Shown here: positions 16,601 to 59,138 of the stretch, one piece after another
How positions within the stretch are numbered: position 1 is the stretch's first letter
Layout: every line of letters begins with the position of its first letter
Source of the DNA: Xanthobacter sp. YC-JY1
Lineage (GTDB): Bacteria > Pseudomonadota > Alphaproteobacteria > Rhizobiales > Xanthobacteraceae
DNA: 64,000 nt
NCBI RefSeq assembly: GCF_021730305.1
Contig: NZ_CP032674.1
Span: 186,001 to 250,000 of the forward strand
Reading direction: 5' to 3'
Translations under genes and position numbers: made by a program
The notes under the pieces: model-generated
Seen by the model: the letters and a program-made list of their open reading frames with translations, nothing else
The model's database searches: none
Told to the model about the DNA's origin: nothing

Positions 16601-16617
16601 CTTGTGCGAGGCTTGCA
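16601..16617 (-). promoter_or_regulatory. Motility box upstream of cheY (15/17 to consensus)
   Basis: In gene orientation TGCAAGCCTCGCACAAG, a tandem GCAAG/ACAAG repeat with 11-bp period, 84 nt before the cheY ATG. The hexamer TCAGAA (16586-16591) follows after 9 nt. Confidence 0.65.
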
Positions 16618-16697
16618 TCAAGAATTAGCGTCGTCTTCCGCAATCAAGACGGACGATTTATAGGAGGGTGCAAGCATAGTGCTTTCAGGAGGCCCTA

Positions 16698-17396
16698 ATG
16701 TCGGCTGCCCGGCGACCCTTCAGGATTGAGACCCCGAGTTCCGCCGGCGCCGCCGTCGACCTCTTCGCGGTGGATGGCCTCGACGACCATCTGCGTCGCA
16801 TCTTCGGCGAGCTCGCCGAGGTGCGGGAGGAAATCTCGCGGTTCAAGGCGCGCGATCCCGCTGTTGATCGCGAGCGGGACCGCAACGTGCTCTGGGCCGG
16901 CATCGAGACCATCCAGGACGCGATCCAGCACACCAAGCATGAGATTGCGAGCCTGCACGCCGAGGGCGCGCGGGGCGAGAAGCTGCTGCGCGCCACCAGC
17001 GAACTGGAGGCGGTCGTCACCGACACGGAGGAGGCCACCGAGGCCATCCTCTCCTCCGCCGAGCGCGTCGACGCCTTGATGCTCCAGATGCACACGCTGC
17101 TGACCGGCGATGCAGCGGACCTCGCCTCCGAGATCCAGAACGAGACGACCAAGATCTTCGAGGCCTGCAATTTCCAGGACATCACCGGCCAGCGCATCCG
17201 CAAGGTCGTGAAGCTGCTGCTGTTCATCGAGGAGCGGGTGGCGCGCATGACCGACATCTGGGGCGGCGCCGACCTCGTGGCGCAGGGCGCGCGCATCATC
17301 CCCCGCGAGGGCGACGAGGCCCTGCTCAATGGCCCTGCCCTCAGGAGCGACCAAGGCGTGGTCTCGCAGGACGACATCGACAGCCTCTTCGCCTGA
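16698..17396 (+). CDS. cheZ: CheY-P phosphatase CheZ
   Basis: A 232-residue CheZ-type phosphatase. The long helical hairpin region carries the catalytic signature ACNFQDITGQRIRKVV near residues 155-170, whose Gln corresponds to the catalytic glutamine of CheZ. It ends with VSQDDIDSLFA, the sort of amphipathic C-terminal peptide that CheZ uses to dock on CheY; it also closely resembles the FliM N-terminal CheY-binding peptide. GGAGG lies 6 nt before the ATG. The gene is divergent from cheY. A REP-like palindrome pair follows. Confidence 0.88.
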   Translation: MSAARRPFRIETPSSAGAAVDLFAVDGLDDHLRRIFGELAEVREEISRFKARDPAVDRERDRNVLWAGIETIQDAIQHTKHEIASLHAEGARGEKLLRATSELEAVVTDTEEATEAILSSAERVDALMLQMHTLLTGDAADLASEIQNETTKIFEACNFQDITGQRIRKVVKLLLFIEERVARMTDIWGGADLVAQGARIIPREGDEALLNGPALRSDQGVVSQDDIDSLFA

Positions 17397-17404
17397 ACCG
17401 CCGC

Positions 17405-17514
17405 CGTCATCGCCCGGCTCGTCCGGGCGATCCACGCGTCCGCCGTCCGGCTCTCTCCCGCTTCGCACCCCTCCAGCCGCGCCGTGGATCGCCCGCACAA
17501 GCCGGGCGACGACG
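17405..17514. repeat. Inverted pair of 32-bp REP-like palindromic elements
   Basis: Two 32-bp units, 17405-17436 and 17483-17514, are inverted relative to each other and each is internally palindromic (GCCCGG...CCGGGC core with GTCAT/GGATC flanks). They resemble the short palindromes scattered between genes in many Hyphomicrobiales genomes. A degenerate fragment follows at about 17526-17555. The pair fills the gap between cheZ and the convergent transglycosylase gene and could act as a bidirectional 3'-end structure. Confidence 0.65.
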
Positions 17515-17637
17515 CAGTGGGTGAGCGATGCCGGGTGTGCGGAGGGCGATGACGGGAGAGCGGGGGTGACCCCGGTCCTCACCGTGTAGAACTTTCCACT
17601 TCGGCCTCTCTCCGCCCCGGGGCGTGGGCAGCCTGGC

Positions 17638-18477
17638 TCAGTAGAGCCGACCGGCCACGGCCGGGGGCGCTGCGGCCGCCGGAATCGGCGGCGCCGCGCA
17701 GAAGGCTTCGGCTGTCCCGGTCCACTGGCCGACGCCCGCAGCCACCAGATTCTTCATCACCCGGCAGACATAGCGATGCTGCGCCACCGTGTTCTTGGGG
17801 CCTGCATTGTAGCGCGCGGCCGCCATGGTCCAGCTGCCGTGCCGCTTGCGCAGGACCTGTAGGAAGCGGGCTCCCTGCTCCACATTGAGGCGAGGATCGA
17901 AGATCTCTTCCAGCGAATTGAACTCGTGCCGGTGCCAGTACCAGTTCACCTGCATGCAGCCGATGTCGATCAGCTTGACGCCGCGCCCGTTGGCTTCGTG
18001 GAACAGCCTCAGCGCCTCGGGCAGTGTCGCGGGGATATGGTCCTTGCCCTCGATATGCAGCATCAGCGGCTGAAGCCCGCTGCCCGTGCCGCTCTCGGTG
18101 AGCGCGACGGCGTAGAGGATCTGCAGCGGGATCTCGTATTTCGCCGCCGCCCGCGCCAGCTCGCGCTCGCAGATGCCCTGGGGGACGGGCTTCCGGCCGG
18201 CGTCTTTCTTCGGCGGTGAAGCCGTCGCCTGGCCTGAGACGGGCGGCGCCGGTGCGGCCTTTTGGGGCGCCGGTTGCCGCGGCTCAAGCCCGCGCCGCTC
18301 CCCCCAGATGGGCCCTGTAGGGGCAGAGGGGGCGGAAATCGGAGGCTGAGGCTCGGCGGCCATGTCCCCCGTCTGGTCGGCGACGGGTGGGCCGAACGCG
18401 GCGGATGCGTCGCCGCAGCGCGCCTCAGCCGGCGCCAGCGCGAGGCTCGTCAGCAACAGAAGGCGCAGAGTCGTCAT
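17638..18477 (-). CDS. Lytic transglycosylase (SLT-like), flagellar cluster
   Basis: A 279-residue exported protein: signal peptide MTTLRLLLLTSLALAP..., a Pro/Ala/Lys-rich linker to about residue 105, then an SLT/lysozyme-like catalytic domain. The domain has ILYAVALTESGTGS (catalytic Glu in the ALTESG motif), IDIGCMQVNWYWH and AAARYNAGP, all hallmarks of the lytic transglycosylase fold. It probably opens peptidoglycan for rod or hook passage, given its position as last gene after fliK, motC and motB. The start codon lies inside the end of fliK (53-bp overlap), an unusually deep overlap; no strong ribosome-binding site is visible. Confidence 0.87.
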   Translation of the reverse strand: MTTLRLLLLTSLALAPAEARCGDASAAFGPPVADQTGDMAAEPQPPISAPSAPTGPIWGERRGLEPRQPAPQKAAPAPPVSGQATASPPKKDAGRKPVPQGICERELARAAAKYEIPLQILYAVALTESGTGSGLQPLMLHIEGKDHIPATLPEALRLFHEANGRGVKLIDIGCMQVNWYWHRHEFNSLEEIFDPRLNVEQGARFLQVLRKRHGSWTMAAARYNAGPKNTVAQHRYVCRVMKNLVAAGVGQWTGTAEAFCAAPPIPAAAAPPAVAGRLY

Positions 18478-19864
18478 CGGGAAATGTCCTGTCCTGCCGG
18501 CTGTTCCGGCCCTGCCGGCCGGGGTCGGTGTTGCCGCGGCCCCCACCTTGCCCCTCGTCCGCGCGCTCTTGCCGGGGCGTGGCTTCCATGGCGGCAAGGC
18601 TGCGCACCGGTGCATCGAGTTGCGACAGGACGGGGCCGCCCACCTCCAGCTCCACGTCCGGCAGCCCGGCCGATCTGAGGATGGCGGAGAGATGGTCCTT
18701 GTCGGCCGCGAGGAGTTCGGCGGTGGCCGGGTTGTCCGCCTTGAGGCGCACGGTGAGGCCGTGCGAGGTGAGGCGCATGTGCACCACCACCCGCCCCAGC
18801 GTTTCCGGCGAAAGCGCGATGTCGAGCACGCGCACCGGGCCGGTGGGCGTGGGGCTGTCGGGGGCTTGGACCGCGCTCCCCGCCGGGGCGCTCGCCGCGG
18901 CGGGATCGATCTGCGCCACCTCCGCCGCGATGGCGCGGCCGACCTGCGCAAGGCTGGCGAAGGGCAGCGCGGGGGATGCCTCCGCCTTGATGGCGGACTG
19001 GAGTGTCGGCGGTTCCGCCACGGGCGCGGTGGGCCGGGCGGGCGCTTGGCTCTGGTCCGGGGCGATGCGACGGGGTTGGGGCTGGTCGCTCTGCGCGTCG
19101 TCGGGCGCGGCGCGCGGGGGGAGCGGCCGGAGGGGCATCCGGTTTTCGCGTGGGTCGAGGTGCGGGGGAGGGGCGTCCGCTGTGGGCGCTCCCGTCGCTT
19201 CGCTCGTGGACGTCTCGCGTTGCGTGTCGGCCCGCGCCACGGGCAGGGGCGCGGTTGCGGGCGGGGTGAAGGCGCGTACCGGCGCGAAATGCGTTTCCTG
19301 CCGCAGCACGACGAGCTGCATCGGCGGCGGCGCCTCCGCCGAACCCGTCAGCGCGGCCAGCGGAACGGGAGCCGGCATCGCCTGAGGGCGCGGCGCGATG
19401 TCCGCGGCCGGCGGGTCCCTGACGTCCATGACCGGCGCGGGCGGCGTCGCGAGGAGCGGCATGGCGGCTGGCTGGAGAGGTGTGTCGGGCGCGGGAGTGT
19501 CGGCGGGCGGCTCGGCCTCAGTCTCGGCGGCGTCGATGGGGCGTGTCTGCTGCTGCGGCAGGATCAGCGCGCCGCGCCGAGCGGGGGCAGCGTCGATCCC
19601 GCCGCGCTCCGGGGCGGGGCGTTCGCAGCGCGCGAGCAGCCGGTCGAGGCCAACCGCCGGGGGGCAGGCCGGGGGCTCGGCGGGAGGTGGCTCCGTTGCA
19701 TCCTCGCGGGGCGCCTCCGCCTCGCTGCGGGGCGTGGGGCGGGCATCCTCCATCAGGCTGAGCAGGTCGCCGAAGGGCGGGCCGTCCTGCGGCAGGGGCT
19801 CGCGGCCGGCGGCGGTGTCGGGGTTCAGGGCGAAGGCCGCCAAGGCGACGTCGGCGGTCCTCAT
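18425..19864 (-). CDS. fliK: Flagellar hook-length control protein FliK
   Basis: A 479-residue protein. The first ~330 residues are low-complexity Pro/Ala-rich sequence, as expected for the ruler part of FliK; the C-terminal domain (about 340-420) has the FliK hallmark LDIALSPETLGRVVVHMRL and an LSAILRSAGLPDVELEV-type end. It measures hook length and switches export specificity through FlhB. In S. meliloti the equivalent gene was called motD. Its ATG overlaps the motC stop (ATGA). The C-terminal tail is Gly/Arg/Asp-rich and overlaps the transglycosylase gene. Confidence 0.88.
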   Translation of the reverse strand: MRTADVALAAFALNPDTAAGREPLPQDGPPFGDLLSLMEDARPTPRSEAEAPREDATEPPPAEPPACPPAVGLDRLLARCERPAPERGGIDAAPARRGALILPQQQTRPIDAAETEAEPPADTPAPDTPLQPAAMPLLATPPAPVMDVRDPPAADIAPRPQAMPAPVPLAALTGSAEAPPPMQLVVLRQETHFAPVRAFTPPATAPLPVARADTQRETSTSEATGAPTADAPPPHLDPRENRMPLRPLPPRAAPDDAQSDQPQPRRIAPDQSQAPARPTAPVAEPPTLQSAIKAEASPALPFASLAQVGRAIAAEVAQIDPAAASAPAGSAVQAPDSPTPTGPVRVLDIALSPETLGRVVVHMRLTSHGLTVRLKADNPATAELLAADKDHLSAILRSAGLPDVELEVGGPVLSQLDAPVRSLAAMEATPRQERADEGQGGGRGNTDPGRQGRNSRQDRTFPDDDSAPSVADEPRAGAG

Positions 19865-22146
19865 CGCGGCGCATCCTTCAGAAGGGAGTCGATCTCCCCG
19901 AGCTTCGCCTGCGCCTTCGTCAGCGCCGCCGAGGGCTTCTCGTCTCCCGCCGTCCGCGCGGGCTGGGCGCTGGCGACCACCGCCGGAGCGGACGCGGCCG
20001 CCGCGGGGGCCGGGGAGGGGGCTGGCGAAGTGGCTTGGGAAGGCGCCTCGTCGGCGCGGCGGATCAGCTCCGCGGTGCGGCGCGCGGCCTCCAGCAGCGC
20101 CTGGTCGGAGGGGTCGAGGCGGGCGCGGTCGATGGCCTTCAACGCCTCCTCCGCCGCCTTGTAGCGGTCCGGCGTCGCCGCCTGCGCGGCGCCGAGATAG
20201 ACGCGCGCGCGCTCGGCATCGCGGCTCGCCGCCGGGGCAAGCACCATGGCCCGCTCGGCGGCGGTGGTGGCGAGCGCGGTCTTGCCCTCGACGATGGCCG
20301 AGCGCGACACTAGGAGGAAGACCTCGCGCCGGGCATCCTCGTCGAGGGGCGCGAGCAGGGCGTCGAGCCGCGAAAGGCCGTCCGGCGTCGCCAGCACGTT
20401 CATGCGGCTCAAGGCGGCGGCGAAGCGCTGGCGGAAGTTACCGGCATAGGCGGAATGGCGGAAGCGGCTGAAATACTGCCCCGACAGACGCTCGAACTGG
20501 TCGAGATCGCCGGCCTGCGCCGCCACCAGCACGGCCCGGCGCAGGGCCGCCTCGTCCACCAGCGTGCCGGGCATGAGGAGGCGTGCCACCTCCAGCAGCC
20601 GCGAAGCCTTCGCCGGGTCGCTGCGCACCGTGAGTGCCGCCTGCGCGAGGGCGATCTGCCCGCCGATGCCGTTGGGCAATTGCCGCGCGTCGATCTCGCC
20701 GAGCTGGCGCAGGGCCGGCTCCTCCCGGCCCTCCAGATAGAGCAGGCTACCGGTGAGGAGCTTTTCGTCGATGTTGGGCTTTGGCTCGCGGTTGATGATG
20801 GCGCGCAGCACGGCCGGATTGCCGCCGCCGAGGAAATACATGACCAGCGCCCGGGCATTGGCCGGATCCTGCCAGACGGACGGATCGGCATCGCCGAAGG
20901 CTGCGTCCATCTCGGTGATCATCGCCCGCTGCTGGGCGATGCCGGCGGTGGAGCCGGCGGCGATGAGATCCTGCAGCCGCTGGAGGCGGCGCACCAGCGT
21001 GACGGGATAGATATCGGTGCGCCCGGCAGGCGGCGCGGCCTTGGCGGGCGCCCCATGGGGCGCGGATGCGTCCGCTTGGGCGGGCGAGGGCTCGGCCGGC
21101 GGATCCTGCGCGGGCGCAGGGGCGGAATGGGCCTCGTGAGACGGCTCGGCACCGGCATGGGCCGCGGGAGCGGCGGTCTGGACGGGCTCTGGGATGGGCG
21201 CCATGGGCTCGGACGCCGGGGGCGCGCCGGCCGCGGTCGTGTCGGCGAGAAGGGGAGCCGGGGTTCCGGCCGGGGTTCCGCCCGCCTCCGCCGCGATGGG
21301 GGTCGGCGCAAGAACTGGCGCAGCGGCGGGAGCCCGCGCCGGTGCCATCGGCACCGCTGGCTCGGGCGGCAAGGGACGGCGCGGCGGCAGCGGCATGGGC
21401 GAAGGCCCGAGTGGGGCATAGGCGGAGACCGCCGATGCGGGCACGGACGGCGCCACGGCGGGACGTGGGGCCGGTGCGGGGGCCGGTCCGGGCGCCGAGT
21501 CGGGCGTCCGTCCGGGCGCGGTCTGAGGTGGCGTCGCGGGCGGTGTCACGGGAAGCGTCGCGGGCTTGGTTGCCGCGACGGGATTCGATGGGGCCGCAGG
21601 TTTTGGCGCTGCCGGCTGGGTTGCTGCTGTGGGCTTGGGTGCCGCAGCCGGGACGGATGTTCCCGACGCAGCCGGGCTCGCCGGGGACGTTGCGCCCGGC
21701 GGACGCACGGCCGGTGCCGGGGATGCCACGGGCTTGGGGGCGGGCGGCGGCGCGACGGGCTTCGGGGCGGCGGCGCCGTCGTTCATTGCTTCAGCGGCGG
21801 GGGACCTCGGCGAGGTGCCAGAGGGCGCAGCCGGATTCTGCGTCGTGGCGGCCTTGGGTTGGGCGGGAGCTGCGACAGGCGGCGCCGGCTTGTCGGCGTT
21901 GGCCGTCGCAGGCGTGGGCCTGCCCGGGGTTGCGGTCCCGGAGGTCGTCGTCCCCGTCGTGGGCTTCGGTGCGGCCGGCTTCGGCGCGGCCGGCTTCGCG
22001 GGCGCAGGCCTGGTCACAGCGGGTCGCGCGGGGGCGGCGGCCTCGCCGCGCAGGCCGTCCCACGGGTCGGCGTCGTCCTCGGCGCGGGCGGTGCCGGTTA
22101 GCAGCAGCGATCCGGCAAGGAGGAGCAGAAGGCCGGGCCGGATCAT
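19861..22146 (-). CDS. motC: Periplasmic motility protein MotC with a large Pro/Ala-rich insertion
   Basis: A 761-residue exported protein: a signal peptide (cleavage near ARA|ED, residue 22), then about 350 residues of Pro/Ala/Thr low complexity, then a helical MotC domain from about 375 (VTLVRRLQRLQDLIAAGS...), in parts, through DPSVWQDPANARALVMYFLGGG and LTGSLLYLEGREEPAL. MotC is the rhizobial periplasmic protein that binds MotB and tunes the stator; typical members are about 430 aa, so the insertion nearly doubles the length. It is coupled to both motB and fliK by ATGA overlaps. The C-terminus is again Ala/Pro-rich. Confidence 0.85.
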   Translation of the reverse strand: MIRPGLLLLLAGSLLLTGTARAEDDADPWDGLRGEAAAPARPAVTRPAPAKPAAPKPAAPKPTTGTTTSGTATPGRPTPATANADKPAPPVAAPAQPKAATTQNPAAPSGTSPRSPAAEAMNDGAAAPKPVAPPPAPKPVASPAPAVRPPGATSPASPAASGTSVPAAAPKPTAATQPAAPKPAAPSNPVAATKPATLPVTPPATPPQTAPGRTPDSAPGPAPAPAPRPAVAPSVPASAVSAYAPLGPSPMPLPPRRPLPPEPAVPMAPARAPAAAPVLAPTPIAAEAGGTPAGTPAPLLADTTAAGAPPASEPMAPIPEPVQTAAPAAHAGAEPSHEAHSAPAPAQDPPAEPSPAQADASAPHGAPAKAAPPAGRTDIYPVTLVRRLQRLQDLIAAGSTAGIAQQRAMITEMDAAFGDADPSVWQDPANARALVMYFLGGGNPAVLRAIINREPKPNIDEKLLTGSLLYLEGREEPALRQLGEIDARQLPNGIGGQIALAQAALTVRSDPAKASRLLEVARLLMPGTLVDEAALRRAVLVAAQAGDLDQFERLSGQYFSRFRHSAYAGNFRQRFAAALSRMNVLATPDGLSRLDALLAPLDEDARREVFLLVSRSAIVEGKTALATTAAERAMVLAPAASRDAERARVYLGAAQAATPDRYKAAEEALKAIDRARLDPSDQALLEAARRTAELIRRADEAPSQATSPAPSPAPAAAASAPAVVASAQPARTAGDEKPSAALTKAQAKLGEIDSLLKDAPR

Positions 22147-23276
22147 GAGGGCGCCTTCAGCAGGATCTCGATGCGCCGGTTCTGCGGCGCGTTCGGATCG
22201 GCGGTGTTCTTGAGGTTGCGGTCGGCGAGGCCCTCGATGGCGGTCACGCGCTTCTCGTCGAGGCCCCCGCGCACCATCATGTAGAGGGCCATCTGCGCCC
22301 GCGCGCTGGACAGCCGCCAGTTGTCGTAGGTGTCCGAGCGGAACGGCCGCGCATCGGTGTGGCCGCGAATGACGATCTCCCCCGGCCGTGCGCCGAGCTT
22401 CTTGGCGATCTCGCCCATGGCCCGCACGAAGCGGGCATCCGGCACGGCCGAGCCCACCGGGAACATGGAGAAGTCGAGATCGTCAGTGAGATCGACGACG
22501 AGCCCTTCCTTTGTGGCGCGCACATCCACACGCGGGGCGGCGCCGGCCGTGCCCACGGTGGCGGCGACCACCTGCTTCAGCTCGCCTTCCAGATCGCGCG
22601 CCGCCTTGCCGGCTGCTGCCGCTTGCGCGGCCGCCTGCGCCTTCTCCGCTTCTCCCGGCTTCGCCGCGGCGGTGGTGGCGTCGGGTCGGCCGGCGGGCTG
22701 GTCGACCTTGGAGGGTTTCGCCTGCGGGTTGCGGGCCTGCCGCCCGGAAGACATCTGCCAGTAAGTGGGATCGAATGGATCCCGGTTCACGTCGCCCGCG
22801 CCCGTGCCGGGGGAGCCGGTGTCGCCGACGGCGGCGTCGGACGTGCCGCCCGGGCGCGCATCGGCATCCCCCGCCAGCTTGTTCAGCACCGCATAGGGAT
22901 CGCGGAAGGCGGCGCGCTCCTTGTCGCCCTGCTGGCGGTCGTCGCCCGCGCCGGTCTCGCGACCCGTGGTGTTCTTCAGGCTGGACTGCTTGTCGCCGTC
23001 CGAAGACGTGCCCTTGGCCTTGGTGTCCTCGGGATCGTTGAGCCCGCGCACGTCGGTGATGCTGGAGGCGAGGTCCACCGGGTTGAAGTAGTTGGCGATG
23101 GCCTTGCGCGTATCCTTGTCGGTGACGTTGATGAGCCACATGATGAGGAAGAAGGCCATCATCGCCGTCATGAAGTCGGCGTGCGCCACCTTCCAGGCGC
23201 TCGAATGGTGCTCGTGCTCGTCATCGTCGTGGCGCTTGACGATGATGATCTCGCCGTGACCCTCTTTGCCGGACAT
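22143..23276 (-). CDS. motB: Flagellar motor stator protein MotB
   Basis: A 377-residue stator subunit. A His/Asp-rich cytoplasmic N-terminus is followed by one membrane helix with the proton-carrying Asp34 (HADFMTAMMAFFLIMWLIN), a long hydrophilic linker (about 75-235), and a C-terminal OmpA-like peptidoglycan-binding domain (GEIVIRGHTDARPF, NWRLSSARAQMAL, NRRIEILL). Its partner MotA is encoded separately at 38.0-38.9 kb, as in rhizobia, where motB and motC sit together away from motA. The Asp/Lys/Gly-rich linker is longer than in enterobacteria. Confidence 0.95.
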   Translation of the reverse strand: MSGKEGHGEIIIVKRHDDDEHEHHSSAWKVAHADFMTAMMAFFLIMWLINVTDKDTRKAIANYFNPVDLASSITDVRGLNDPEDTKAKGTSSDGDKQSSLKNTTGRETGAGDDRQQGDKERAAFRDPYAVLNKLAGDADARPGGTSDAAVGDTGSPGTGAGDVNRDPFDPTYWQMSSGRQARNPQAKPSKVDQPAGRPDATTAAAKPGEAEKAQAAAQAAAAGKAARDLEGELKQVVAATVGTAGAAPRVDVRATKEGLVVDLTDDLDFSMFPVGSAVPDARFVRAMGEIAKKLGARPGEIVIRGHTDARPFRSDTYDNWRLSSARAQMALYMMVRGGLDEKRVTAIEGLADRNLKNTADPNAPQNRRIEILLKAPS

Positions 23277-23288
23277 GGCGCGCTCCCG

Positions 23289-25618: not shown

Positions 25619-25728
25619 CGGCGGATCTCGTCTGATTGCGGCCGGTCCGCTGATGCGGGGCCGGGACAGGGACCGGGCACGCGCTTGCGGGCGCTCATGT
25701 GCCTTAGCCGGCAATCTCGACGGTCAAA

Positions 25729-25745
25729 CTTGCCTGAGCATTGCG
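25729..25745 (-). promoter_or_regulatory. Motility box upstream of fliF (13/17 to consensus)
   Basis: In gene orientation CGCAATGCTCAGGCAAG, GCAA repeats with 11-bp period, 110 nt before fliF. CGAGAT (25714-25719) follows after 9 nt. It lies downstream of the fliC terminator, as expected for a new promoter. Confidence 0.55.
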
Positions 25746-25779
25746 GGCAACCTCCGCTTCCGCGCGGGAGCACGCGCGC

Positions 25780-25814
25780 AAAAAAATGGCCACGCTCCGG
25801 GGGAGGAGGTGGCC
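25780..25814 (-). terminator. Rho-independent terminator of fliC
   Basis: On the minus strand GGCCAC...GTGGCC (stem extended by CTCC/GGAG with a 1-nt bulge) is followed by ATTTTTTT, about 110 nt past the flagellin stop. A second GC-rich stem CCGCCGC/GCGGCGG at 25891-25914 lies directly after the stop codon. The rest of 25619-25923 holds only the fliF box. Confidence 0.88.
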
Positions 25815-25923
25815 GAGGGAGGCGTCGGGGGGACGCTGAAAGGGAGAGCGCGCCGGAACGCAGCCGGAGGGAGCGGCGCCGGCGCGCGGACCGCCGCACC
25901 CGGAGGCGCGGCGGCGGACGCGA

Positions 25924-26967: not shown

Positions 26968-27129
26968 GGGAATGTCCCTCTGTGACTTGGAATGAAGGGG
27001 GACATGCCGGGCTCACACCGGCATGGCAGGGCGGCGTCATGCCTTTGGATGGCCGGCCCGCTCGGGGTCCGGCACCCGGCCCTTGCGGAGCCGGTCAACC
27101 TGCCATGGAAGAGACGTTAAACGCGCAAG

Positions 27130-27146
27130 CTTGCGCGAGGCTTGCG
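27130..27146 (-). promoter_or_regulatory. Motility box upstream of fliC (17/17, consensus copy)
   Basis: In gene orientation CGCAAGCCTCGCGCAAG: CGCAAG repeated with an 11-bp period. It lies between the fliP stop and the flagellin start, 162 nt before the ATG. TTAACG (27115-27120) follows after 9 nt. The bases just downstream (CTTGCGCG) also make a partial palindrome with the proximal half. Confidence 0.7.
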
Positions 27147-27158
27147 CCGGCGGGCGCC

Positions 27159-29938: not shown

Positions 29939-30015
29939 GGAACCTCCTCCTCCCCGAGGGGCAGCGCCGGGCGGGGGCACGGGCGCCTTGGATGGTTCCG
30001 GTCTAGGCGCAGAGA

Positions 30016-30032
30016 CTTGCGCGACGCTTGCG
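30016..30032 (-). promoter_or_regulatory. Motility box upstream of motE (16/17 to consensus)
   Basis: In gene orientation CGCAAGCGTCGCGCAAG, 77 nt before motE, in the 108-bp gap after flgI. CTAGAC (30001-30006) follows after 9 nt. It implies a separate promoter for motE-flgH-fliL-fliP inside the long run of basal-body genes. Confidence 0.7.
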
Positions 30033-33685: not shown

Positions 33686-33754
33686 GGCACATTCCCCAGA
33701 TGGCTCGCGCGCCTTTGGAAGGGGCGAGGGATGACCGTTTCCTAGCGCGCGAAA

Positions 33755-33771
33755 CTTGCCCGAGGCTGGCC
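33755..33771 (-). promoter_or_regulatory. Motility box upstream of flgB (14/17 to consensus)
   Basis: In gene orientation GGCCAGCCTCGGGCAAG, 69 nt before flgB. CTAGGA (33740-33745) follows after 9 nt. Confidence 0.6.
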
Positions 33772-38874: not shown

Positions 38875-38917
38875 GGCTTCCCCCGTTCTGTCCGGTGTCC
38901 GGTGGTAGGGGGCGAGG

Positions 38918-38934
38918 ATTGTGCGAGGCTGTGC
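38918..38934 (-). promoter_or_regulatory. Motility box upstream of motA (11/17, core well kept)
   Basis: In gene orientation GCACAGCCTCGCACAAT; the core AGCCTCGCRCAA is kept while the distal half is degenerate. It is 43 nt before motA. CTACCA (38903-38908) follows after 9 nt. Confidence 0.5.
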
Positions 38935-39224: not shown

Positions 39225-39241
39225 GGCAAGGCTCGCGCAAG
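39225..39241 (+). promoter_or_regulatory. Motility box upstream of the DUF1217-flgF-fliI unit (15/17)
   Basis: GGCAAGGCTCGCGCAAG on the plus strand, 77 nt before the DUF1217 ATG. CGAAAT (39252-39257) follows after 10 nt. This plus-strand copy keeps the same orientation to its gene as the minus-strand copies. Confidence 0.65.
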
Positions 39242-42156: not shown

Positions 42157-42173
42157 CTCCAGCCCCGCGCAAG
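42157..42173 (+). promoter_or_regulatory. Motility box upstream of flgE (14/17 to consensus)
   Basis: CTCCAGCCCCGCGCAAG begins directly after the fliI stop codon, 92 nt before flgE. TCAGAT (42184-42189) follows after 10 nt. Confidence 0.6.
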
Positions 42174-42265
42174 CCATCCGCCCTCAGATGCGCTGATGAC
42201 ACTGGCGCAGGCTCCGCCCTCCGGCGGACGGCGCGCCCCCTCCAGACCGCGATGAGGACCGAGCC

Positions 42266-46870: not shown

Positions 46871-46887
46871 GGTCGGCTTCGCGCAAT
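46871..46887 (+). promoter_or_regulatory. Motility box upstream of flgD (11/17, proximal half kept)
   Basis: GGTCGGCTTCGCGCAAT lies in the 90-bp gap after flbT, 37 nt before flgD. CGAGAA (46897-46902) follows after 9 nt. A further CGCAAG half-site sits just upstream at 46866-46871. Confidence 0.45.
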
Positions 46888-50476: not shown

Positions 50477-50478
50477 GC

Positions 50479-50880
50479 ATGGTCAAGGAGCGACATCGCA
50501 AAGCCGAGCGCCTCGTTGCCGTGCAACGGCAACTGAAACGTGCCGCCGAGACACGCCATGCGGAGGCGGTGCGCGAGGGGGTGAGGCTCGATGGCGAAAC
50601 GGCGGACCTTGTGGCCGCCCTCGATGACGGGCGGTTCGCCCCGCTGATGCTGGAAAACGTGGCGCGGCGGCTCGAGCGCGTCGCCCTCGCCCGCCAGCAG
50701 GCGCACGCCGCCGAGGTGGCCGCCGCCGGTCAGGTGAAGGCGGAAAGCTTCACCCTGAAGCGCGCCGAGCGCCATGCCGAGACCACCGGACGGCTCGCCC
50801 GCGCCGAAGCCGAGCGCACCGCCACCGACGAGATCGCCGAGGCGAGCCTCGTATCCAGCGGACGTGCAAGCCTCGCATAA
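50479..50880 (+). CDS. Hypothetical FliJ-like coiled-coil protein
   Basis: A 133-residue, highly charged, almost wholly alpha-helical protein (Arg/Glu/Ala-rich; HRKAERLVAVQRQLKRAAE and ALARQQAHAAEVAAAGQ). It has no signal peptide. Size, coiled-coil content and position after fliR suggest the FliJ role (export chaperone that couples FliI to FlhA), and no other fliJ is visible; but no FliJ motif is certain. It starts 2 bp after fliR. Its 3' end overlaps a repeat box for the next unit. Confidence 0.6.
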   Translation: MVKERHRKAERLVAVQRQLKRAAETRHAEAVREGVRLDGETADLVAALDDGRFAPLMLENVARRLERVALARQQAHAAEVAAAGQVKAESFTLKRAERHAETTGRLARAEAERTATDEIAEASLVSSGRASLA

Positions 50881-50881
50881 G
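50865..50881 (+). promoter_or_regulatory. Motility box upstream of the FlgJ-like gene (14/17), inside a coding end
   Basis: TGCAAGCCTCGCATAAG lies across the last five codons and stop of the preceding gene, 49 nt before the FlgJ-like ATG. GCAGGG (50891-50896) follows after 9 nt. Confidence 0.55.
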
Positions 50882-50930
50882 CATGGCGGGGCAGGGTGGC
50901 GTCCGAACCGTTCTCGATGGAAGCCGCACC

Positions 50931-52467: not shown

Positions 52468-52557
52468 CCATGCGCGCCCTCACCCTCGCCCTTCGCGCCC
52501 CGCGCCTCATCCCTCACATCAGCCGCGGCCCCGCCGCATCGCCCCGGAGCCAGGATC

Positions 52558-55233
52558 ATGGATGATCTCTTGCGCGAGTTCCTGACCGAGACCAGCGAGA
52601 GCCTCGACGTCGCCGACGTGGAGCTCGTGAAGTTCGAGCAGGACCCGAACAACGCGCAGATTCTGAACAACATCTTCCGCCTGGTGCACACCATCAAGGG
52701 CACCTGCGGCTTCATCGGCCTGCCGCGCCTCGCCTCCCTCGCGCACGCCGCCGAGACGCTGATGGACCGCTTCCGCGAGGGCCGGCCCGTCACCACCGAT
52801 GCGGTGGGGCTGGTGCTTTCCACCATCGATCGCATCAAGCTCCTGCTCCAGCACGTGGAGGAGACCGAGGGTTCCGAGCCCGAGGGTGAGGACCGCGATC
52901 TCATCTCCCTCCTTGAGGCCATGGCGGAGGCCGTGGACGCCCCCGCAGCTCCGCCCCCACCGGCGCCGCCACCCCAGCCGGCGCAGACGCTGGAGCGCCC
53001 GCTGCTGCCCGGCGAGCTGCCGCTGGACGAGCTGGATCGCATCTTCCGCGAGACCAAGGTGGACCCGATCACGCCCGCGCCCGCCGCCCCGGCCGCACCG
53101 CCCAAGCCGGCACCGGCCATGCCCAAGGCCGACGCCGATGCCACCCACGCCGCGGCTCAGGCCGGCGAGGCCCATGGCGTCGCCGCCCAGTCCATCCGCG
53201 TCCATGTGGGGGTGCTGGAACAGCTGATGACCATGGTGTCCGAGCTGGTGCTGACCCGCAACCAGCTGATGGAGATCGCCCGTCGCCACGACGAGCCGGA
53301 ATACAAGGTCTCCCTGCAGCGCCTGTCCAATGTCACGGGCGAGCTGCAGGAAGCGGTGATGCGCACGCGCATGCAGCCCATCGGCAACGCCTGGCAGAAG
53401 CTGCCGCGCATCGTGCGTGACCTCGCGCAGGAGCTGGGCAAGCAGATCGAGCTGGAGCAGGTGGGCGCCGACACGGAACTGGACCGGCAGGTGCTGGACC
53501 AGATCAAGGACCCGCTCACCCACATGGTCCGCAACTCCGCCGACCACGGCCTGGAGATGCCCGAGCAGCGCCGCGCCGCGGGCAAGTCCGAGCGCGGCCT
53601 CATCCGCCTCTCCGCCTATCACGAGGGCGGCCATGTCATCGTGGAGATTTCCGACAATGGCCGCGGCCTCGACGTCGCGCGGATCAAGCAGAAGGCGCTG
53701 GAGAATGGCCTCGCCACCGAGGCCGAACTGGCGAAGATGCCGGACTCTCAAGTGTTCCGCTTCATCTTCCACGCCGGCTTTTCCACCGCGCAGAAGGTGA
53801 CCAATGTCTCCGGCCGCGGCGTCGGCATGGACGTGGTGCGCTCCAACCTCGAATCCATCGGCGGCACCGTCGATGTGCGCTCGCGGCAGGGCGAGGGCTC
53901 CACCTTCGTCATCAAGATCCCGCTGACGCTCGCCATCGTCCCCGCCCTCATCGTGCGCGCCGCCGGCGAGCGCTTTGCCCTGCCGCAGAGCGCGGTGGAG
54001 GAACTGGTGCGGGTGCAGGCGGGCTCGGACCACGAGATCACCTGGCTGAACAACTCCCCCGTGCTCGGCCTGCGCGATCGTCTCCTGCCCATCGTCAGCC
54101 TCGGCGCCCTGCTCGGCCTCTCGCCGGAGCGCGACGGGCGCGACGAGGCGCTGTGGGAGCGGGCGCTCATCGTGGTGATGAAGGTGGGCCACCAGACCTT
54201 CGGCGTGGTGGTCGAGGCGGTGTCCCACACCGAGGAAATCGTGGTGAAGCCCATGGCCTCGGCCCTGCGCCAGCTGCCCATGGTCTCCGGCAGCACCATT
54301 CTCGGCGACGGGCGGGTCATCATGATCCTCGATCCCGCGGGCTTGGCCCAGCATGCGGCGGCGCGCGGCGGCGCTGCCGAGGAGGTCAGCCATCACGGCG
54401 CCGGCCGGCAGTCGCGCGCCAGCCAGAAGCGCTCGTCCCTGCTCCTGTTCCGCGCCGGCTCGCGCGATCTCAAGGCGGTGCCGCTCGGCCTCGTCACCCG
54501 CATCGAGGAGCTTGAGGTGGCGCGCATCGAGCGCGTCAACGGCTACCCGGTGCTGCAGTATCGCGGCGCGCTGATCCCGGTGCTCTACGCCAACGAGGAG
54601 GTCCAGCGCGTGGCCGCCGGCACCCAGCCCATGCTGGTGTTCGCCGATGGCGGGCGGGTCATGGGCCTCGTGGTGGACGAGATCGTCGACATCGTGGAGG
54701 CCGAGCTCGACATGGAGCTGTCGCCGTCCAACATGCCCGAGGTGCTCGGCGCGGCGGTGCTGTCGGGGCAGGCCACTGAGATCCTCGACGTCGCCTTCTA
54801 CGTCCAGGTGGCCTTCGGCGAGCGCTTCCGCCATCTGGTGCGCTCGTCCGAGCGGCCGCGCCTGCTCCTGGTGGACGAGAGCCCGTTCCACCGCGACCTC
54901 TTGGCGCCCATGCTCAACGGCAACGGTTACGAGGTCACGGCCTGTGCCTCCGGCGGCGAGGCGCTGGCGCGGCTCGGCACGGAGGACGGCTTCGACGCCA
55001 TCGTCAGCGACGTGGACCTGCCCGACATGGACGGCTTCGCCCTCGCCGCCGCCGTGCGTGGCGACCCGCGCATCCGCGAGGTGCCGATCATCGCGCTCGC
55101 CACCGCGCAGGACCGCGATGCGCTGGAGCGGGGCCGCGCCGTCGGCTTCACCGACTGCGTTGCCAAGTTCGATCGCTCCGGCCTCATCGCCGCGCTGAAG
55201 GAATTCACCGGCCGACAGGGAATTGCCGCATGA
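52558..55233 (+). CDS. cheA: Hybrid chemotaxis histidine kinase CheA with C-terminal receiver
   Basis: An 891-residue CheA: HPt domain (1-105) with phospho-His44 in HTIKGTCGF; Pro/Ala linker; dimerisation helices (about 208-275); HATPase with HMVRNSADHGLE, DNGRGLD and GRGVGMDVVRSNLESIGG (split); a CheW-like regulatory domain (about 460-600); a second CheW-like domain (about 620-760); and a C-terminal receiver (about 765-885) with DES, SDVDLPDMDG and a late Lys. It phosphorylates CheY and CheB. The attached receiver may act as a phosphate sink. It heads cheA-cheW-cheY-cheB-cheR. Confidence 0.96.
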   Translation: MDDLLREFLTETSESLDVADVELVKFEQDPNNAQILNNIFRLVHTIKGTCGFIGLPRLASLAHAAETLMDRFREGRPVTTDAVGLVLSTIDRIKLLLQHVEETEGSEPEGEDRDLISLLEAMAEAVDAPAAPPPPAPPPQPAQTLERPLLPGELPLDELDRIFRETKVDPITPAPAAPAAPPKPAPAMPKADADATHAAAQAGEAHGVAAQSIRVHVGVLEQLMTMVSELVLTRNQLMEIARRHDEPEYKVSLQRLSNVTGELQEAVMRTRMQPIGNAWQKLPRIVRDLAQELGKQIELEQVGADTELDRQVLDQIKDPLTHMVRNSADHGLEMPEQRRAAGKSERGLIRLSAYHEGGHVIVEISDNGRGLDVARIKQKALENGLATEAELAKMPDSQVFRFIFHAGFSTAQKVTNVSGRGVGMDVVRSNLESIGGTVDVRSRQGEGSTFVIKIPLTLAIVPALIVRAAGERFALPQSAVEELVRVQAGSDHEITWLNNSPVLGLRDRLLPIVSLGALLGLSPERDGRDEALWERALIVVMKVGHQTFGVVVEAVSHTEEIVVKPMASALRQLPMVSGSTILGDGRVIMILDPAGLAQHAAARGGAAEEVSHHGAGRQSRASQKRSSLLLFRAGSRDLKAVPLGLVTRIEELEVARIERVNGYPVLQYRGALIPVLYANEEVQRVAAGTQPMLVFADGGRVMGLVVDEIVDIVEAELDMELSPSNMPEVLGAAVLSGQATEILDVAFYVQVAFGERFRHLVRSSERPRLLLVDESPFHRDLLAPMLNGNGYEVTACASGGEALARLGTEDGFDAIVSDVDLPDMDGFALAAAVRGDPRIREVPIIALATAQDRDALERGRAVGFTDCVAKFDRSGLIAALKEFTGRQGIAA

Positions 55234-55742
55234 ACGCCCATACGCCCCTGACCCACGAGGCAGCGCCGACTGCCGCGCACGACGTCGTCCAGTACGTCAC
55301 GGTACGCATCGGGCCGCAGCTGTTCGGCCTGCCCATCGCGCTGGTGCACGAGGTGTTCGTGCCGGAGGCCATCACCCGCGTGCCGCTCGCCCCCGGCGAG
55401 ATCGCCGGCGTGCTGAACCTGCGGGGACGCATCGTCACCATGGTGGCCATGCGGCGCCTGCTGTCGCTGCCCGACGCGGAAGGCGCGCCCATGGCAGTGG
55501 GCATCGAGCACCACGGCGAGGCCTTCGGCCTCATCATCGACGAGGTGGGCGAGGTGCTCTCCCTCGATGCGGCCCGCCGCGAAGCCAACCCGGCCAACCT
55601 CGACCCGCGCTGGGCGCAGGTGGCCGCCGGCGTCCATCGCCTCTCCGGCGATCTGATGCTGATCCTCAATGTGGACCTGGTGCTCGATCGGGCCGGCTCG
55701 GCCGTCGCCCGCCAGGATGCCGGCAAACGCGCGGAGCTTTGA
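55230..55742 (+). CDS. cheW: Chemotaxis coupling protein CheW
   Basis: A 170-residue CheW: IGPQLFGLPIALVHEVFVP, ITRVPLAPGEIAGVLNLRGRIVTMVAMRRLL (split) and FGLIIDEVGEVLSL are typical. It links CheA to receptors. The ATG overlaps the cheA stop. Confidence 0.95.
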   Translation: MNAHTPLTHEAAPTAAHDVVQYVTVRIGPQLFGLPIALVHEVFVPEAITRVPLAPGEIAGVLNLRGRIVTMVAMRRLLSLPDAEGAPMAVGIEHHGEAFGLIIDEVGEVLSLDAARREANPANLDPRWAQVAAGVHRLSGDLMLILNVDLVLDRAGSAVARQDAGKRAEL

Positions 55743-56120
55743 ATGAAGACCTGTCTCGTGGTGGACGACTCCAGCGTCGTCCGCAAGGTTGCCCGCGGCA
55801 TCCTCGAAGATCTCGGCTTCTGCGTGGAGGAGGCGGCAGACGGCGCCCCGGCGCTGGAGATGTGCGCCCGCGCCATGCCGGACGCCATCCTGCTCGACTG
55901 GTCCATGCCGGTGACGGATGGCCTCGCCGTGCTCGAACAGCTCAGGTCGAGCGAGGCCGGGCGTGCGCCGAAGGTCATCTTCTGCACCGCCAAGAACGAC
56001 ATGGAGCACATCGCCCGCGCCGTCTCTCTTGGCGCGGACGAATACATCATGAAGCCCTTCGATTCCGAAATCCTGCGCGAGAAGCTCGAGGCCGTCGGCC
56101 TCCTGGACAGGGTGGACTGA
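55743..56120 (+). CDS. cheY: Chemotaxis response regulator CheY (che operon copy)
   Basis: A 125-residue single receiver: acidic VVDDSS, acceptor Asp in AILLDWSMPV, Thr in IFCTAKND, Lys in YIMKPFD. It follows cheW without gap and is followed by cheB. It is the second CheY in the window; this one is CheY-like with MPVTDGLAVL, whereas the copy at 16 kb carries the DWNM motif. Which one binds the motor cannot be told. Confidence 0.93.
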   Translation: MKTCLVVDDSSVVRKVARGILEDLGFCVEEAADGAPALEMCARAMPDAILLDWSMPVTDGLAVLEQLRSSEAGRAPKVIFCTAKNDMEHIARAVSLGADEYIMKPFDSEILREKLEAVGLLDRVD

Positions 56121-57265
56121 TGCCGCAATCGATCTCCCCGCCGGCGACGTCCGCGCTCGGCTCCGCCATCCGCGTGATGGTGGTGGACGACAGCGTGTTC
56201 GTGCGCGGCATCGTCTCGCGCTGGTTGTCGGAAGACCCCGCCTTCGAGCTTGTCGGCACCTTTTCCAACGGGAAGGCGGCGCTCGGCGATCTCGATCGGG
56301 TGCAGCCCGACGTGGTCATTCTTGACCTTGAAATGCCGGAGATGGACGGCCTCACCGCCCTGCCGCTGATCCTGAAGCAGCGCCGCAACACCACCGTCAT
56401 CGTCGCCTCGGCGCTCTCCCGACGCGGCGCCGAGGTGAGCCTCAAGGCGCTCACGCTGGGCGCCGCGGACTATCTGCCGAAGCCCGACGCCACTAAGGGC
56501 ACGTTTGCCACCGACGACTTCAAGCGCGAGCTGATGGAGAAGGTCCGCAGCCTCGGCCTGAAGGTGCTGCGGCAGGCGGGCCGCGCCCCGCTCGCGCCGC
56601 CGCCCACCGCCCAGCCGCAGGCGGCGGCATTGCCCAGCCAGCCGAGGGGGCCGATCCGCTTGCGACCCTATTCCGTGTCCGACGTCTCGCTGATCGCCGT
56701 GGGCAGCTCCACCGGAGGGCCGCAGGCGCTGACGCGCCTGTTCGCGGTGCTCGGGCCCTATATCGACCGCATCCCTGTGGTCATCACCCAGCATATGCCG
56801 CCCACCTTCACCGCGCTCCTCGCCGAGCATGTCACCCGCGCCGCGGGGCGGCAGGCGGCGGAGGGGCAGGATGGCGAGGCGCTGCGCGCCGGGCGCATCT
56901 ACATCGCCCCCGGCGGCAAGCACATGCTGCTGGAGCGCGACGGGCCGCGCACCCTCATCCGCCTGTCCGACGGGCCGGCGGTGAATTTCTGCAAGCCGGC
57001 GGTGGACCCCATGTTCGACACCGTGGCGCAGATCTACCGCCGCAACGCGCTGGCCCTCGTGCTCACCGGCATGGGCAGCGACGGCGCGCGCGGGGCCGGT
57101 ATCATCGCCGATGCGGGCGGCAGCGTCATCGTGCAGGACGAGGAGACGAGCGTGGTCTGGGGCATGCCCGGCGCCACCGCCAGCGCAGGGAACGCCAGCG
57201 AGGTGCTCCCCCTCCAGGCCATCGGTCCCAAGGTCATCGCCATGCTTGCCAGGAGGCGCGGATGA
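56120..57265 (+). CDS. cheB: Protein-glutamate methylesterase CheB
   Basis: A 381-residue CheB: receiver domain 15-140 (VVDDSVFVR, acceptor in VVILDLEMPEMDG, Lys in YLPKPD), Pro-rich linker, and methylesterase domain with catalytic Ser in VGSSTGGPQAL, His in ITQHMPPTF and Asp in GMGSDGARG. It removes methyl groups from receptors or deamidates glutamine. It shares one base with the cheY stop codon. The true start is at 56120 within a longer open frame. Confidence 0.96.
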   Translation: MPQSISPPATSALGSAIRVMVVDDSVFVRGIVSRWLSEDPAFELVGTFSNGKAALGDLDRVQPDVVILDLEMPEMDGLTALPLILKQRRNTTVIVASALSRRGAEVSLKALTLGAADYLPKPDATKGTFATDDFKRELMEKVRSLGLKVLRQAGRAPLAPPPTAQPQAAALPSQPRGPIRLRPYSVSDVSLIAVGSSTGGPQALTRLFAVLGPYIDRIPVVITQHMPPTFTALLAEHVTRAAGRQAAEGQDGEALRAGRIYIAPGGKHMLLERDGPRTLIRLSDGPAVNFCKPAVDPMFDTVAQIYRRNALALVLTGMGSDGARGAGIIADAGGSVIVQDEETSVVWGMPGATASAGNASEVLPLQAIGPKVIAMLARRRG

Positions 57266-58107
57266 TCCGCCCCGCGGACTACGAGTTCTTCGCCCGGTTC
57301 CTGAAAGAGAAGTCGGGGCTCATCCTCACCGACGACAAGCACTATCTCCTGGAAAGTCGCCTCATCCCGTTGCTCAACCGCTTCGCGATTCCTGACTTCG
57401 CGCGCTTGGCGGAAATCCTGAAGAGCAACGAGGCGCCCATCATCGCGGAGGCGGTGGTGGAGGCGATGACCACGAATGAGTCCTTGTTCTTCCGCGACAA
57501 GGTGCCGTTCGAGGACATGGCTCGCTCGCTGTTGCCGGCCCTGTGCGCGGCGCGGCTGAAGACCCACACGCTGCGCATCTGGTGCGCCGCCGCCTCCACG
57601 GGACAGGAGCCCTATTCCATTGCCATGCTGCTGGCGGAGCGGCCGGAGCTGACCGGCGGGCGGCGGGTGCAGATCCTCGGCACGGATATCTCAAGCGACG
57701 TGCTGGAGCGGGCCCGCGCCGGCCGCTACAACCAGTTCGAGGTGCAGCGCGGCCTCTCGGTGCAGCAGCTGCTCAAGTATTTCGTGAAGTCGGGCGACTG
57801 GTGGGAGGTCATCCCGCAGCTCAAGTCCGTCGTCGAGTATCGCAAGTTCAACCTCCTCGAACCCTTCGGCGGGCTCGGCACCTTCGATCTCATCATGTGC
57901 CGGAACGTGCTGATCTATTTCGACGTGCCCACCAAGGCCGACATCCTGCTGCGCATGTCGCGCCAGCTCGCGCCCGACGGCTTCCTCCAGCTCGGCGGGG
58001 CGGAGACGGCGATCGGCATCTGCGATGCCTTCCGTCCGCTGCCGGACCATCGCGGCACCTACGTCCACACCCGCGCGCCCTCGACGATCGTCGCCGCCCG
58101 GCGGTAG
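57262..58107 (+). CDS. cheR: Chemotaxis protein methyltransferase CheR
   Basis: A 281-residue CheR with an N-terminal helical domain (YEFFARFLKEKSGLILTDDK), SAM-binding motif LRIWCAAASTGQEPYSIAM and later DLIMCRNVLIYFDV. It methylates receptor glutamates. The ATG overlaps the cheB stop (ATGA). A terminator hairpin follows about 95 bp downstream. Confidence 0.96.
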   Translation: MIRPADYEFFARFLKEKSGLILTDDKHYLLESRLIPLLNRFAIPDFARLAEILKSNEAPIIAEAVVEAMTTNESLFFRDKVPFEDMARSLLPALCAARLKTHTLRIWCAAASTGQEPYSIAMLLAERPELTGGRRVQILGTDISSDVLERARAGRYNQFEVQRGLSVQQLLKYFVKSGDWWEVIPQLKSVVEYRKFNLLEPFGGLGTFDLIMCRNVLIYFDVPTKADILLRMSRQLAPDGFLQLGGAETAIGICDAFRPLPDHRGTYVHTRAPSTIVAARR

Positions 58108-58426
58108 CACGAGCTTTCGCCGGCCGCCCGCGCCCAGCCCGCGGCGGGGATCGTTCCGGATCGGAGCCAATCCGGAGCGAGAATGCCCTCAAAACTCCAG
58201 AGCCGGCGCCGCGGATGCAGAATCCGCCGCCGGCTTTCGTCTTTCGTAGGGTGGCGAGGCCGCGACCACTCCGATCTGGCAATCAATTCGCTTCCAAACC
58301 CGTTCCTCTTCAGATTGCTCGCTCTCCCGCCTCGTCATAGGGATTTTGTGTCGTTCGGCCCGTCAATAAGTCATTAAGACATCGACGCCGACCGCGCGGA
58401 AATGCTGTGACATGATGGAGGGTATC
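58108..58426. other. Spacer between cheR and ftcR
   Basis: This interval holds the che-operon terminator (58201-58245) and, after it, A+T-richer DNA leading to ftcR that should contain the ftcR promoter. I found no motility box and no clear -35/-10 there. No credible gene. Confidence 0.5.
58201..58245 (+). terminator. Rho-independent terminator after cheR
   Basis: AGCCGGC...GCCGGCT with an inner GCGGAT/ATCCGC stem (58211-58216/58222-58227) and a small bulge, followed by TTTCGTCTTTC. Confidence 0.75.
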
Positions 58427-59098
58427 ATGTATGTGGTCGTTGATGAGCGTGCGTCTGTTGCTGAAAGCTATGTGTCGGCCTTCTCTCGTGAAGGATTTTC
58501 TTCGCAGAGCTTCTCGGGCAGCGAGTTTCGGGACTGGATTGAGACCACCTCGGATCAGGACCTCGGCGCGGTCGAAAGCTTCCTGATCGGGGAATCCGAC
58601 GCGCGGATCACCTATCCCGACCTCATCCGCTCCCACAGCCAGGCCCCCATCATCGCGCTGGAGGACGTGAAGTCCCTCACCCAGACGCTGGAACTCTTCA
58701 CCGCCGGCATTGACGACGTGGTGCGCAAGCCCGTCCATGTGCGTGAGATCGTGGCCCGCGCCGATGCGGTGTGGCGGCGGGTGCGCTCGGGCGACATCCA
58801 GATGCCGCTCGACGAGCGCCTGCGCGTGTTCTTCGATGGCCGCGACCCGGAAGTGGATGGCGAGCCGCTGGCCCTGCCGCGCCGCGAGCGGCACATCCTC
58901 GAATATCTGGTGAAGAACTCGAAGCGCCGGGTCACCAAGACCCAGATCTTCAACACCATCTACGGCATCTTCAACGAGGACGTGGACGAGAGCGTGGTCG
59001 AGGGTCACATGAGCAAGCTGCGCAAGAAGCTGCGCCTGAAGCTCGGCCGCGACGTGATCGATGCCCGCCGCTATCTCGGATACCAGTACGTCGGCTGA
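58427..59098 (+). CDS. ftcR: FtcR/Rem-type flagellar transcriptional regulator (OmpR-like)
   Basis: A 223-residue OmpR-type protein. The N-terminal part (about 1-115) is a receiver-like fold starting MYVVVDERASVAESY, but the usual phospho-acceptor Asp is not present at the end of its third strand (FLIGESDAR region), although VRKPV keeps the Lys. The C-terminal winged helix (about 130-223) has LPRRERHILEYLVKNSKRRVTKTQI (split) and VEGHMSKLRKKLRLKLG. This matches FtcR of Brucella and Rem of Sinorhizobium, activators of class II flagellar genes. The start at 58427 has GGAGGG 4 nt upstream; ATGs at 58412 and 58415 overlap that site. It is the best candidate to bind the repeat boxes. Confidence 0.88.
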   Translation: MYVVVDERASVAESYVSAFSREGFSSQSFSGSEFRDWIETTSDQDLGAVESFLIGESDARITYPDLIRSHSQAPIIALEDVKSLTQTLELFTAGIDDVVRKPVHVREIVARADAVWRRVRSGDIQMPLDERLRVFFDGRDPEVDGEPLALPRRERHILEYLVKNSKRRVTKTQIFNTIYGIFNEDVDESVVEGHMSKLRKKLRLKLGRDVIDARRYLGYQYVG

Positions 59099-59121
59099 TG
59101 AGCTGAACAACTCCCTGGGGC

Positions 59122-59138
59122 CGCAAGCTACAACCCAG
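59122..59138 (+). promoter_or_regulatory. Degenerate motility box upstream of the chemoreceptor gene (11/17)
   Basis: CGCAAGCTACAACCCAG keeps the distal CGCAAG half but loses the proximal one. CTAAGA (59148-59153) follows after 9 nt. It is 80 nt before the ATG. Weakest copy. Confidence 0.35.

Follow-up and report, generated by a model that had tools for sequence, protein, structure and literature searches.

A tandem-repeat box with a fixed -10 element before flagellar operons of Xanthobacter sp. YC-JY1, a candidate operator of FtcR

What kind of promoter element stands before the motility genes of Xanthobacter sp. YC-JY1, and which protein might read it? The question arises from a window of 64,000 nucleotides (bases 186001-250000 of a single-contig genome of 5.39 Mb), in which an earlier reading made from the letters alone (the sequence-only reading) had listed 11 copies of a 17-bp box and proposed that it is the operator of the FtcR/Rem-type regulator encoded by ftcR in the same window. 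Our results support this proposal and add a feature absent from that reading, a sigma-70-type -10 hexamer (TAnnnT) at a fixed spacing from the box. It is very probable that the box is an FtcR operator, a class II-type activator site with a fixed -10 element.

All 11 copies were found at the coordinates listed below. Rescoring each site against the 17-bp consensus reproduced the claimed range of 17/17 to 11/17, all 11 copies face their gene, and the distance from box end to likely start codon was 37-162 nt, as had been claimed. The 11-bp period ascribed to GCAAG was also recovered, in the form GCMAG-N6-GCAAG. NCBIfam and Pfam served to check ftcR and the genes headed by a box, and FliP, FliL (weak), MotB, MotC, CheZ, FlaF, CheW and CheR were also family-checked; the remaining names come from the sequence-only reading or gene order. 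No clear family was found for motE, which gave only a sub-threshold MgtE_N match (NCBIfam, Pfam).

16601..16617, minus strand: box before cheY; 15/17; -10-like CAGAAC at 16585-16590
25729..25745, minus strand: box before fliF; 13/17, with the variant first half-site GCAAT; -10-like GAGATT at 25713-25718
27130..27146, minus strand: box before the flagellin gene fliC; 17/17; -10 TAACGT at 27114-27119
30016..30032, minus strand: box before motE; 16/17; -10 TAGACC at 30000-30005
33755..33771, minus strand: box before the flgB operon; 14/17; -10 TAGGAA at 33739-33744
38918..38934, minus strand: box before the motA-fliM operon; 11/17 to the consensus of the sequence-only reading; -10 TACCAC at 38902-38907
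39225..39241, plus strand: box before DUF1217-flgF-fliI, divergent from the motA box; 15/17; likely start codon 39319
42157..42173, plus strand: box before flgE; 14/17; -10-like TCAGAT at 42184-42189
46871..46887, plus strand: weak box-like site before flgD; 11/17; poor -10 GAGAAG
50865..50881, plus strand: box before the FlgJ-like gene; 14/17; -10-like CAGGGT at 50892-50897; likely start codon 50931
58427..59098, plus strand: ftcR, OmpR/PhoB-type winged-helix regulator with a degenerate receiver, proposed binder; Pfam Trans_reg_C 1.6e-13
59122..59138, plus strand: weak box before the chemoreceptor gene; 11/17; -10 TAAGAC at 59149-59154

In the window, matches with up to three mismatches numbered 9 against 0.99 expected (standard deviation 1.04), and none of 100 shuffles reached 9. 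Of these nine, the matches at 18943 and 24562 lay outside the listed sites, with no motility gene start just downstream. Across the whole genome, 65 matches were found at up to three mismatches, compared with 25 for the reversed pattern; at up to two mismatches there were 10, four of them inside the window. A weight matrix built from the 11 sites found nine window matches at a score of at least 16, compared with 0.35 in third-order Markov sequences; given that this matrix was trained on the very sites it finds, the relatives serve as the independent test. An Rfam scan of the window gave no match.

Might the repeat simply reflect how a G+C-rich genome is composed or uses its codons? GC-rich words recur in such a genome, some box matches lie inside genes, and when the 61 upstream regions of the window were searched de novo by expectation maximisation (EM), codon-like patterns won and the box went unranked. 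However, the shuffled and Markov sequences did not reproduce the repeat, and genomes of 13 further families keep the box at orthologous promoters, where it was found without a prior. This explanation is already refuted, and we regard it as next to impossible.

The sequence-only reading had suggested scanning related genomes with a weight matrix. With the matrix built from the window alone, the same promoters proved to have a box in X. agilis, X. sp. NM-59, G026, Aquabacter and Ancylobacter, and several of them in order-level relatives, the sites of G037 being weak or missing. The distant test set comprised 16 untrained genomes of 13 families, scanned with a cut-off of 13 bits. There, the box preceded flgB in 13 of 15 genomes, motA in 14 of 15, flgE in 13 of 16, the FlgJ-like gene in 11 of 15, DUF1217 in 8 of 14, fliF in 6 of 11, fliC in 6 of 13, cheY in 2 of 5, motE in 1 of 13 and flgD in 0 of 15. 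Pooled over nine promoter types, 74/117 promoters had a box (74/132 when flgD was included), as compared with 2/174 for twelve other genes of the cluster taken as mostly operon-internal. Given that some lineages may have an extra transcription unit at flhA (7/16), fliQ (3/15) and ftcR (1/11, in G154), these genes were counted apart. Upstream regions from seven clusters for the other kind of flagellum gave 0 of 34 with a box (3 of cheY, 5 of fliF and 26 of other gene starts), a limited control because the flgB, motA and flgE orthologues there fell below the cut-off and their promoters were mostly unrecognisable. Moreover, when prior-free EM was run on 46 flgB, motA and flgE promoters, CAGCCTCGCGCAAGctt emerged from 45 of them; the same procedure on control genes gave codon-like patterns.

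The cheY box was found at the same place in G026, both Aquabacter genomes and Ancylobacter, and the chemoreceptor box in X. aminoxidans, the metagenome-assembled genome G014 and Aquabacter. The 8 nearer relatives compared at fliF share the variant form of the box there, for the most part with scores under 13 bits. The motE box was present in near kin, in which the flgD site was also similar. Judged by conservation, the sequence-only reading had given the flgD and motE sites too much weight; the flgD site is weak and lineage-specific. The claimed lack of a box before ftcR held in the nearer relatives, none of which had one of at least 13 bits (best 10.7). Likewise, no box of at least 13 bits was found upstream of cheA in the nearer relatives (best 9.8).

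An alignment of 54 sites from this and related genomes reads GC(A/C)AGC(C/T)TCGCGCAAG, followed by a weaker C(T/C)T, with half-sites spaced 11 bp apart and a -10 element that starts 10 bp past the box. The TAnnnT hexamer occupies +27 to +32 in this set, its TA lying exactly at +27 in 27 of the 54 sites and at +28 in 5. The untrained sites of the 16 distant genomes, found with the 17-mer matrix of the window alone, had T in 65%, A in 83% and T in 56% at +27, +28 and +32, respectively (70-71 of 74 sites were long enough). Given that the hexamer columns lay outside the search matrix, their enrichment is an independent sign of promoter function. In addition, 57% of 67 sites had C at +38, followed by purines, which suggests that transcription may start near +39. 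As in class II promoters of the OmpR/PhoB family, the tandem half-sites lie about 11 bp apart in one orientation to the gene, keep a fixed spacing to a sigma-70 -10 and overlap the -35 region; the layout is, to judge from these features, that of a PhoB-type activator promoter.

The preferred fixed spacing to the -10 hexamer would also be expected if the box were the -35 part of an alternative-sigma promoter that works without an activator. However, the downstream element resembles the ordinary sigma-70 TAnnnT, and a 17-bp tandem repeat exceeds the length of a -35 hexamer. Moreover, sigma-28-type sites numbered 0 in the window (0.33 expected) and sigma-54-type sites 6 (11.6 expected), both searched by consensus elements; on these window-scale counts a sigma-28 or sigma-54 flagellar promoter was rejected. 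We consider an activator-free promoter of this kind highly improbable.

A 38-column sequence model built from 52 sites was used to search whole genomes. In the genome of strain YC-JY1, the 11 best matches (E up to 0.13) were nine window promoters, eight of which were training sites and the ninth the untrained flgD, and two sites outside the window, both preceding chemoreceptor genes with an MCP signalling domain. The enrichment before motility genes that the sequence-only reading had expected of a genome scan was therefore found. The fliC box was the best match of the whole genome (E 6.7e-5), the flgD site had an E of 0.129 and the fliF box one of 1.29; the chemoreceptor box at 59122 was absent from the matches at E up to 10. 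Ten weaker matches (E 0.5-6) comprised fliF and nine outside sites, at which no downstream gene matched a motility gene of the window where one was read.

The matches follow FtcR. Of 61 relatives, 14 have an FtcR orthologue, and these had more sites than the other 47, also when training sites were subtracted (p 5e-6). A further 40 genomes, hand-chosen before the search to spread over families, comprised 20 with FtcR, all new to the model, and 20 flagellated genomes without it, 6 of which were also among the 61 relatives. At E up to 0.5, the FtcR-positive genomes had a mean of 8.55 matches and the FtcR-negative ones 2.0 (p 2e-6); at E up to 0.1, the totals were 103 and 7. Of these 103 matches, 56 lay within 40 kb of the own-kind flhA, and 0 of the 110 lay near the other-kind flhA in the 22 genomes with its place listed, including the dual-flagella genomes G071, G154 and G272. 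In nearer FtcR-positive relatives, 40 match regions, mostly outside the cluster, were read; after exclusion of 2 training sites, 19 of 38 preceded motility genes by BLAST against the window genes, a count in which three near-identical Xanthobacter genomes give orthologous chemoreceptors more than once. The corresponding count in FtcR-negative genomes was 0 of 20. Finally, FtcR (E up to 1e-25) occurs in 67 of 249 genomes of the order. Own-kind flhA is present in 62 of these 67 and in no genome that lacks FtcR, so that FtcR is found with the matching flagellar system. Within the same genus (G001-G013), 4 of 13 genomes have this MotA, and the FtcR orthologue occurs in the same four.

The FtcR of the window was 99% identical to that of Xanthobacter aminoxidans and 75% identical to its orthologue in G026. 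Its recognition helix (ESVVEGHxSKLRKKLR) is nearly invariant in 23 orthologues across the order, in parallel with the box; together with the genome counts that follow FtcR, this argues for the proposal that the FtcR/Rem-type regulator has the box as its operator. The Response_reg match of the receiver in Pfam is weak and below the curated cut-off. At the phospho-acceptor column, located from an alignment with RegX3, the 23 orthologues have Glu (12), Gln (9), Asp (1) or Lys (1), so that the acceptor Asp of canonical phospho-activated response regulators is not conserved; the sole Asp is that of G071, a genome with two flagellar systems. As 21 of the 23 have Glu or Gln there, the receiver appears phosphomimetic or dead, in line with LafR of Bradyrhizobium, for which independence of phosphorylation has been reported (PMC8429497).

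Upstream of ftcR, at 58363-58377, lies a CtrA-like TTAA-N7-TTAA with one mismatch, the only such match in the window. Exact TTAA-N7-TTAAC precedes ftcR in X. agilis, X. sp. NM-59 and G059 (L003, L010 and L112), and one-mismatch forms precede it in some other genomes. With the exact site in 3 of 33 upstream regions, CtrA control of ftcR was rejected as a general rule. Beside ftcR and the chemoreceptor gene, the stretch 60961-63061 encodes two response regulators. One (60961-61776) has a weak MarR-like winged helix and is widespread in nearer relatives and rare in distant ones; the second has an EAL domain (cyclic di-GMP phosphodiesterase type).

The main alternative to FtcR is another DNA-binding protein that was co-inherited with the flagellar type and owns the box, with FtcR acting elsewhere, upstream or indirectly. 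Since every genome with own-kind flhA has FtcR, counts cannot separate FtcR from its cluster, and the FtcR motif reported for Brucella differs from the box (see below). The concrete candidate is the protein of 60961-61776, a receiver with a sub-threshold MarR/HTH_27 match that lies near ftcR in nearer relatives. However, an 11-bp direct repeat is a typical OmpR/PhoB signature, and among the window proteins scanned with Pfam, which were not all of them, Trans_reg_C was found in FtcR only. The candidate itself was found at E up to 1e-25 in only 3 (G120, G064 and G166) of the 20 distant FtcR-positive genomes, a set in which the box persists, and was rejected as a general binder because it is too rare. 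Moreover, G053 has FtcR, lacks MotA, FlhA and FlgG matches and still has sites with box and -10, with the caveat that its match count is within the FtcR-negative range and that it has also kept a homologue of the 60961-61776 protein. On this evidence a different owner of the box seems improbable.

Several findings weigh against FtcR as the order-wide reader of the box. In addition to the poor conservation of the flgD and motE sites in distant genomes, the FtcR-negative G262 has one match about 21 kb from its flhA, which is of the other kind, at the weaker E of 0.18, and few matches were found in some FtcR-positive genomes (1 in G199, 3 in G125 and 3 in G170). In distant FtcR-positive genomes, only 2 of 20 out-of-cluster matches preceded motility genes by BLAST (0 of 7 in distant FtcR-negative genomes); thus, single out-of-cluster matches are unreliable at this distance. 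The tie of FtcR to one flagellar type makes a co-inherited binder formally possible. Finally, the motif reported for Brucella FtcR from chromatin immunoprecipitation sequencing with gel shifts, TGTGGGCA (PMC9456535), had 0 occurrences in the window, and the consensus of the 52 aligned sites lacks it too; it was rejected as an explanation of the box. The protein or the analysis may differ in Brucella, or FtcR may have two modes.

A further line of evidence comes from published work on a delta-actR mutant of Azorhizobium, which shows that FtcR (ActR) is needed for such operons. That experiment connects the regulator genetically, and not by binding, with operons that a box precedes. In G026, the flgB and motA units have the box and fliF has a weaker variant. 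Taken together, the box is real and order-wide and looks like a functional activator box with a preferred fixed promoter geometry, and we strongly infer that FtcR, by far the best candidate, binds it.

In the mechanism that we propose, FtcR, which belongs to the activators of the OmpR/PhoB family and is kin to Rem and LafR, would bind the box as its operator, with two winged-helix domains placed head to tail on the half-sites GCMAGC(C/T)TCGC and GCAAGCTT at 11-bp spacing. The box would stand in for the -35 element, the sigma-70 -10 (TAnnnT) lying 10 bp after its last G; bound FtcR would contact RNA polymerase, and transcription would start about 6-8 nt past the hexamer. One FtcR switch would thereby serve the fliF, fliC, flgB, motA, flgE, DUF1217-flgF, FlgJ-like, cheY and chemoreceptor units. 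Given that the receiver usually lacks a phosphorylatable Asp, FtcR activity is probably set by protein level and not by phosphorylation.

Does the box reach beyond flagella? In G053 (L105, L173, L174 and L176), an FtcR orthologue (65%) has been kept, and a search for MotA, FlhA and FlgG gave no match; by contrast, FtcR, FlhA and FlgG are all present in G166, which belongs to the same genus. The genes behind the box matches of G053 encode an MHYT-PAS-GGDEF-EAL protein, an EAL protein and a histidine kinase with PAS. A pair of adjacent boxes stands before short stretches with C-rich loops, and one of these stretches has a terminator-like hairpin. As the match count of G053 is within the FtcR-negative range, a box set beyond flagella is a lead. 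G109 also has FtcR but no FlhA or FlgG match. Boxes without a close gene start were observed at L105 (17927-18350) and L146 (about 3000-3336, minus strand), before stretches of 150-200 nt whose hairpins carry the C-rich loops CCTCCCACC, CCTCCTCCCCC and CCCCCCACCC. These stretches are possible FtcR-driven small RNAs, and they matched no Rfam family at the gathering cut-off. Boxes also precede a glucose-1-phosphate cytidylyltransferase gene (L150, G026), a gene for an ALTTAQ-repeat protein with 37 matched stretches (L168, G013) and one for a protein with a sub-threshold FlxA match (L160, G019); all three are candidate regulon members by virtue of their upstream sequence. One box match in G026 (L153) lies about 110 nt upstream of a transfer RNA gene. 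It is tempting, if rather doubtful, to suppose that an ancient phosphorylation-independent FtcR code, GCMAGCYTCGCGCAAG-N10-TAnnnT, governs this flagellar type throughout the order and reaches cyclic di-GMP enzymes and small RNAs in G053.

FtcR, Rem and LafR are called master motility regulators in plant-associated and environmental Hyphomicrobiales. If our reading is true, the sequence of a single conserved box and its fixed -10 would delimit the FtcR regulon and would predict candidate members, including chemoreceptors, DUF1217, ALTTAQ-repeat and FlxA-like proteins and a sugar nucleotidyltransferase. It would also explain how the flagellar cascade could run through sigma-70 and one activator.

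FtcR of Brucella, Rem of Sinorhizobium, LafR of Bradyrhizobium and ActR of Azorhizobium are homologous and have been reported as required for flagellar genes (PMC8639532; PMC8429497). For Rem, LafR and ActR, no box is reported in the literature compared, the key Rem and LafR papers aside. Within the reach of these sources, the box is new as a described operator, an earlier description being possible, and the kind of thing is known. Similar to the box, CtrA sites place an OmpR-type regulator on spaced repeats near alphaproteobacterial flagellar promoters; different from the box, their consensus is TTAA-N7-TTAA, a dissimilar sequence. The Pho box of PhoB differs in its half-site, CTGTCAT as compared with GCAAGC(C/T)T here, and PhoB differs from FtcR, whose receiver is degenerate and whose putative targets are flagellar and not phosphate genes. 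In layout, however, the box is most like the class II promoters of PhoB, in which 11-bp direct repeats in one orientation replace the -35 element and the -10 lies about 10 bp downstream.

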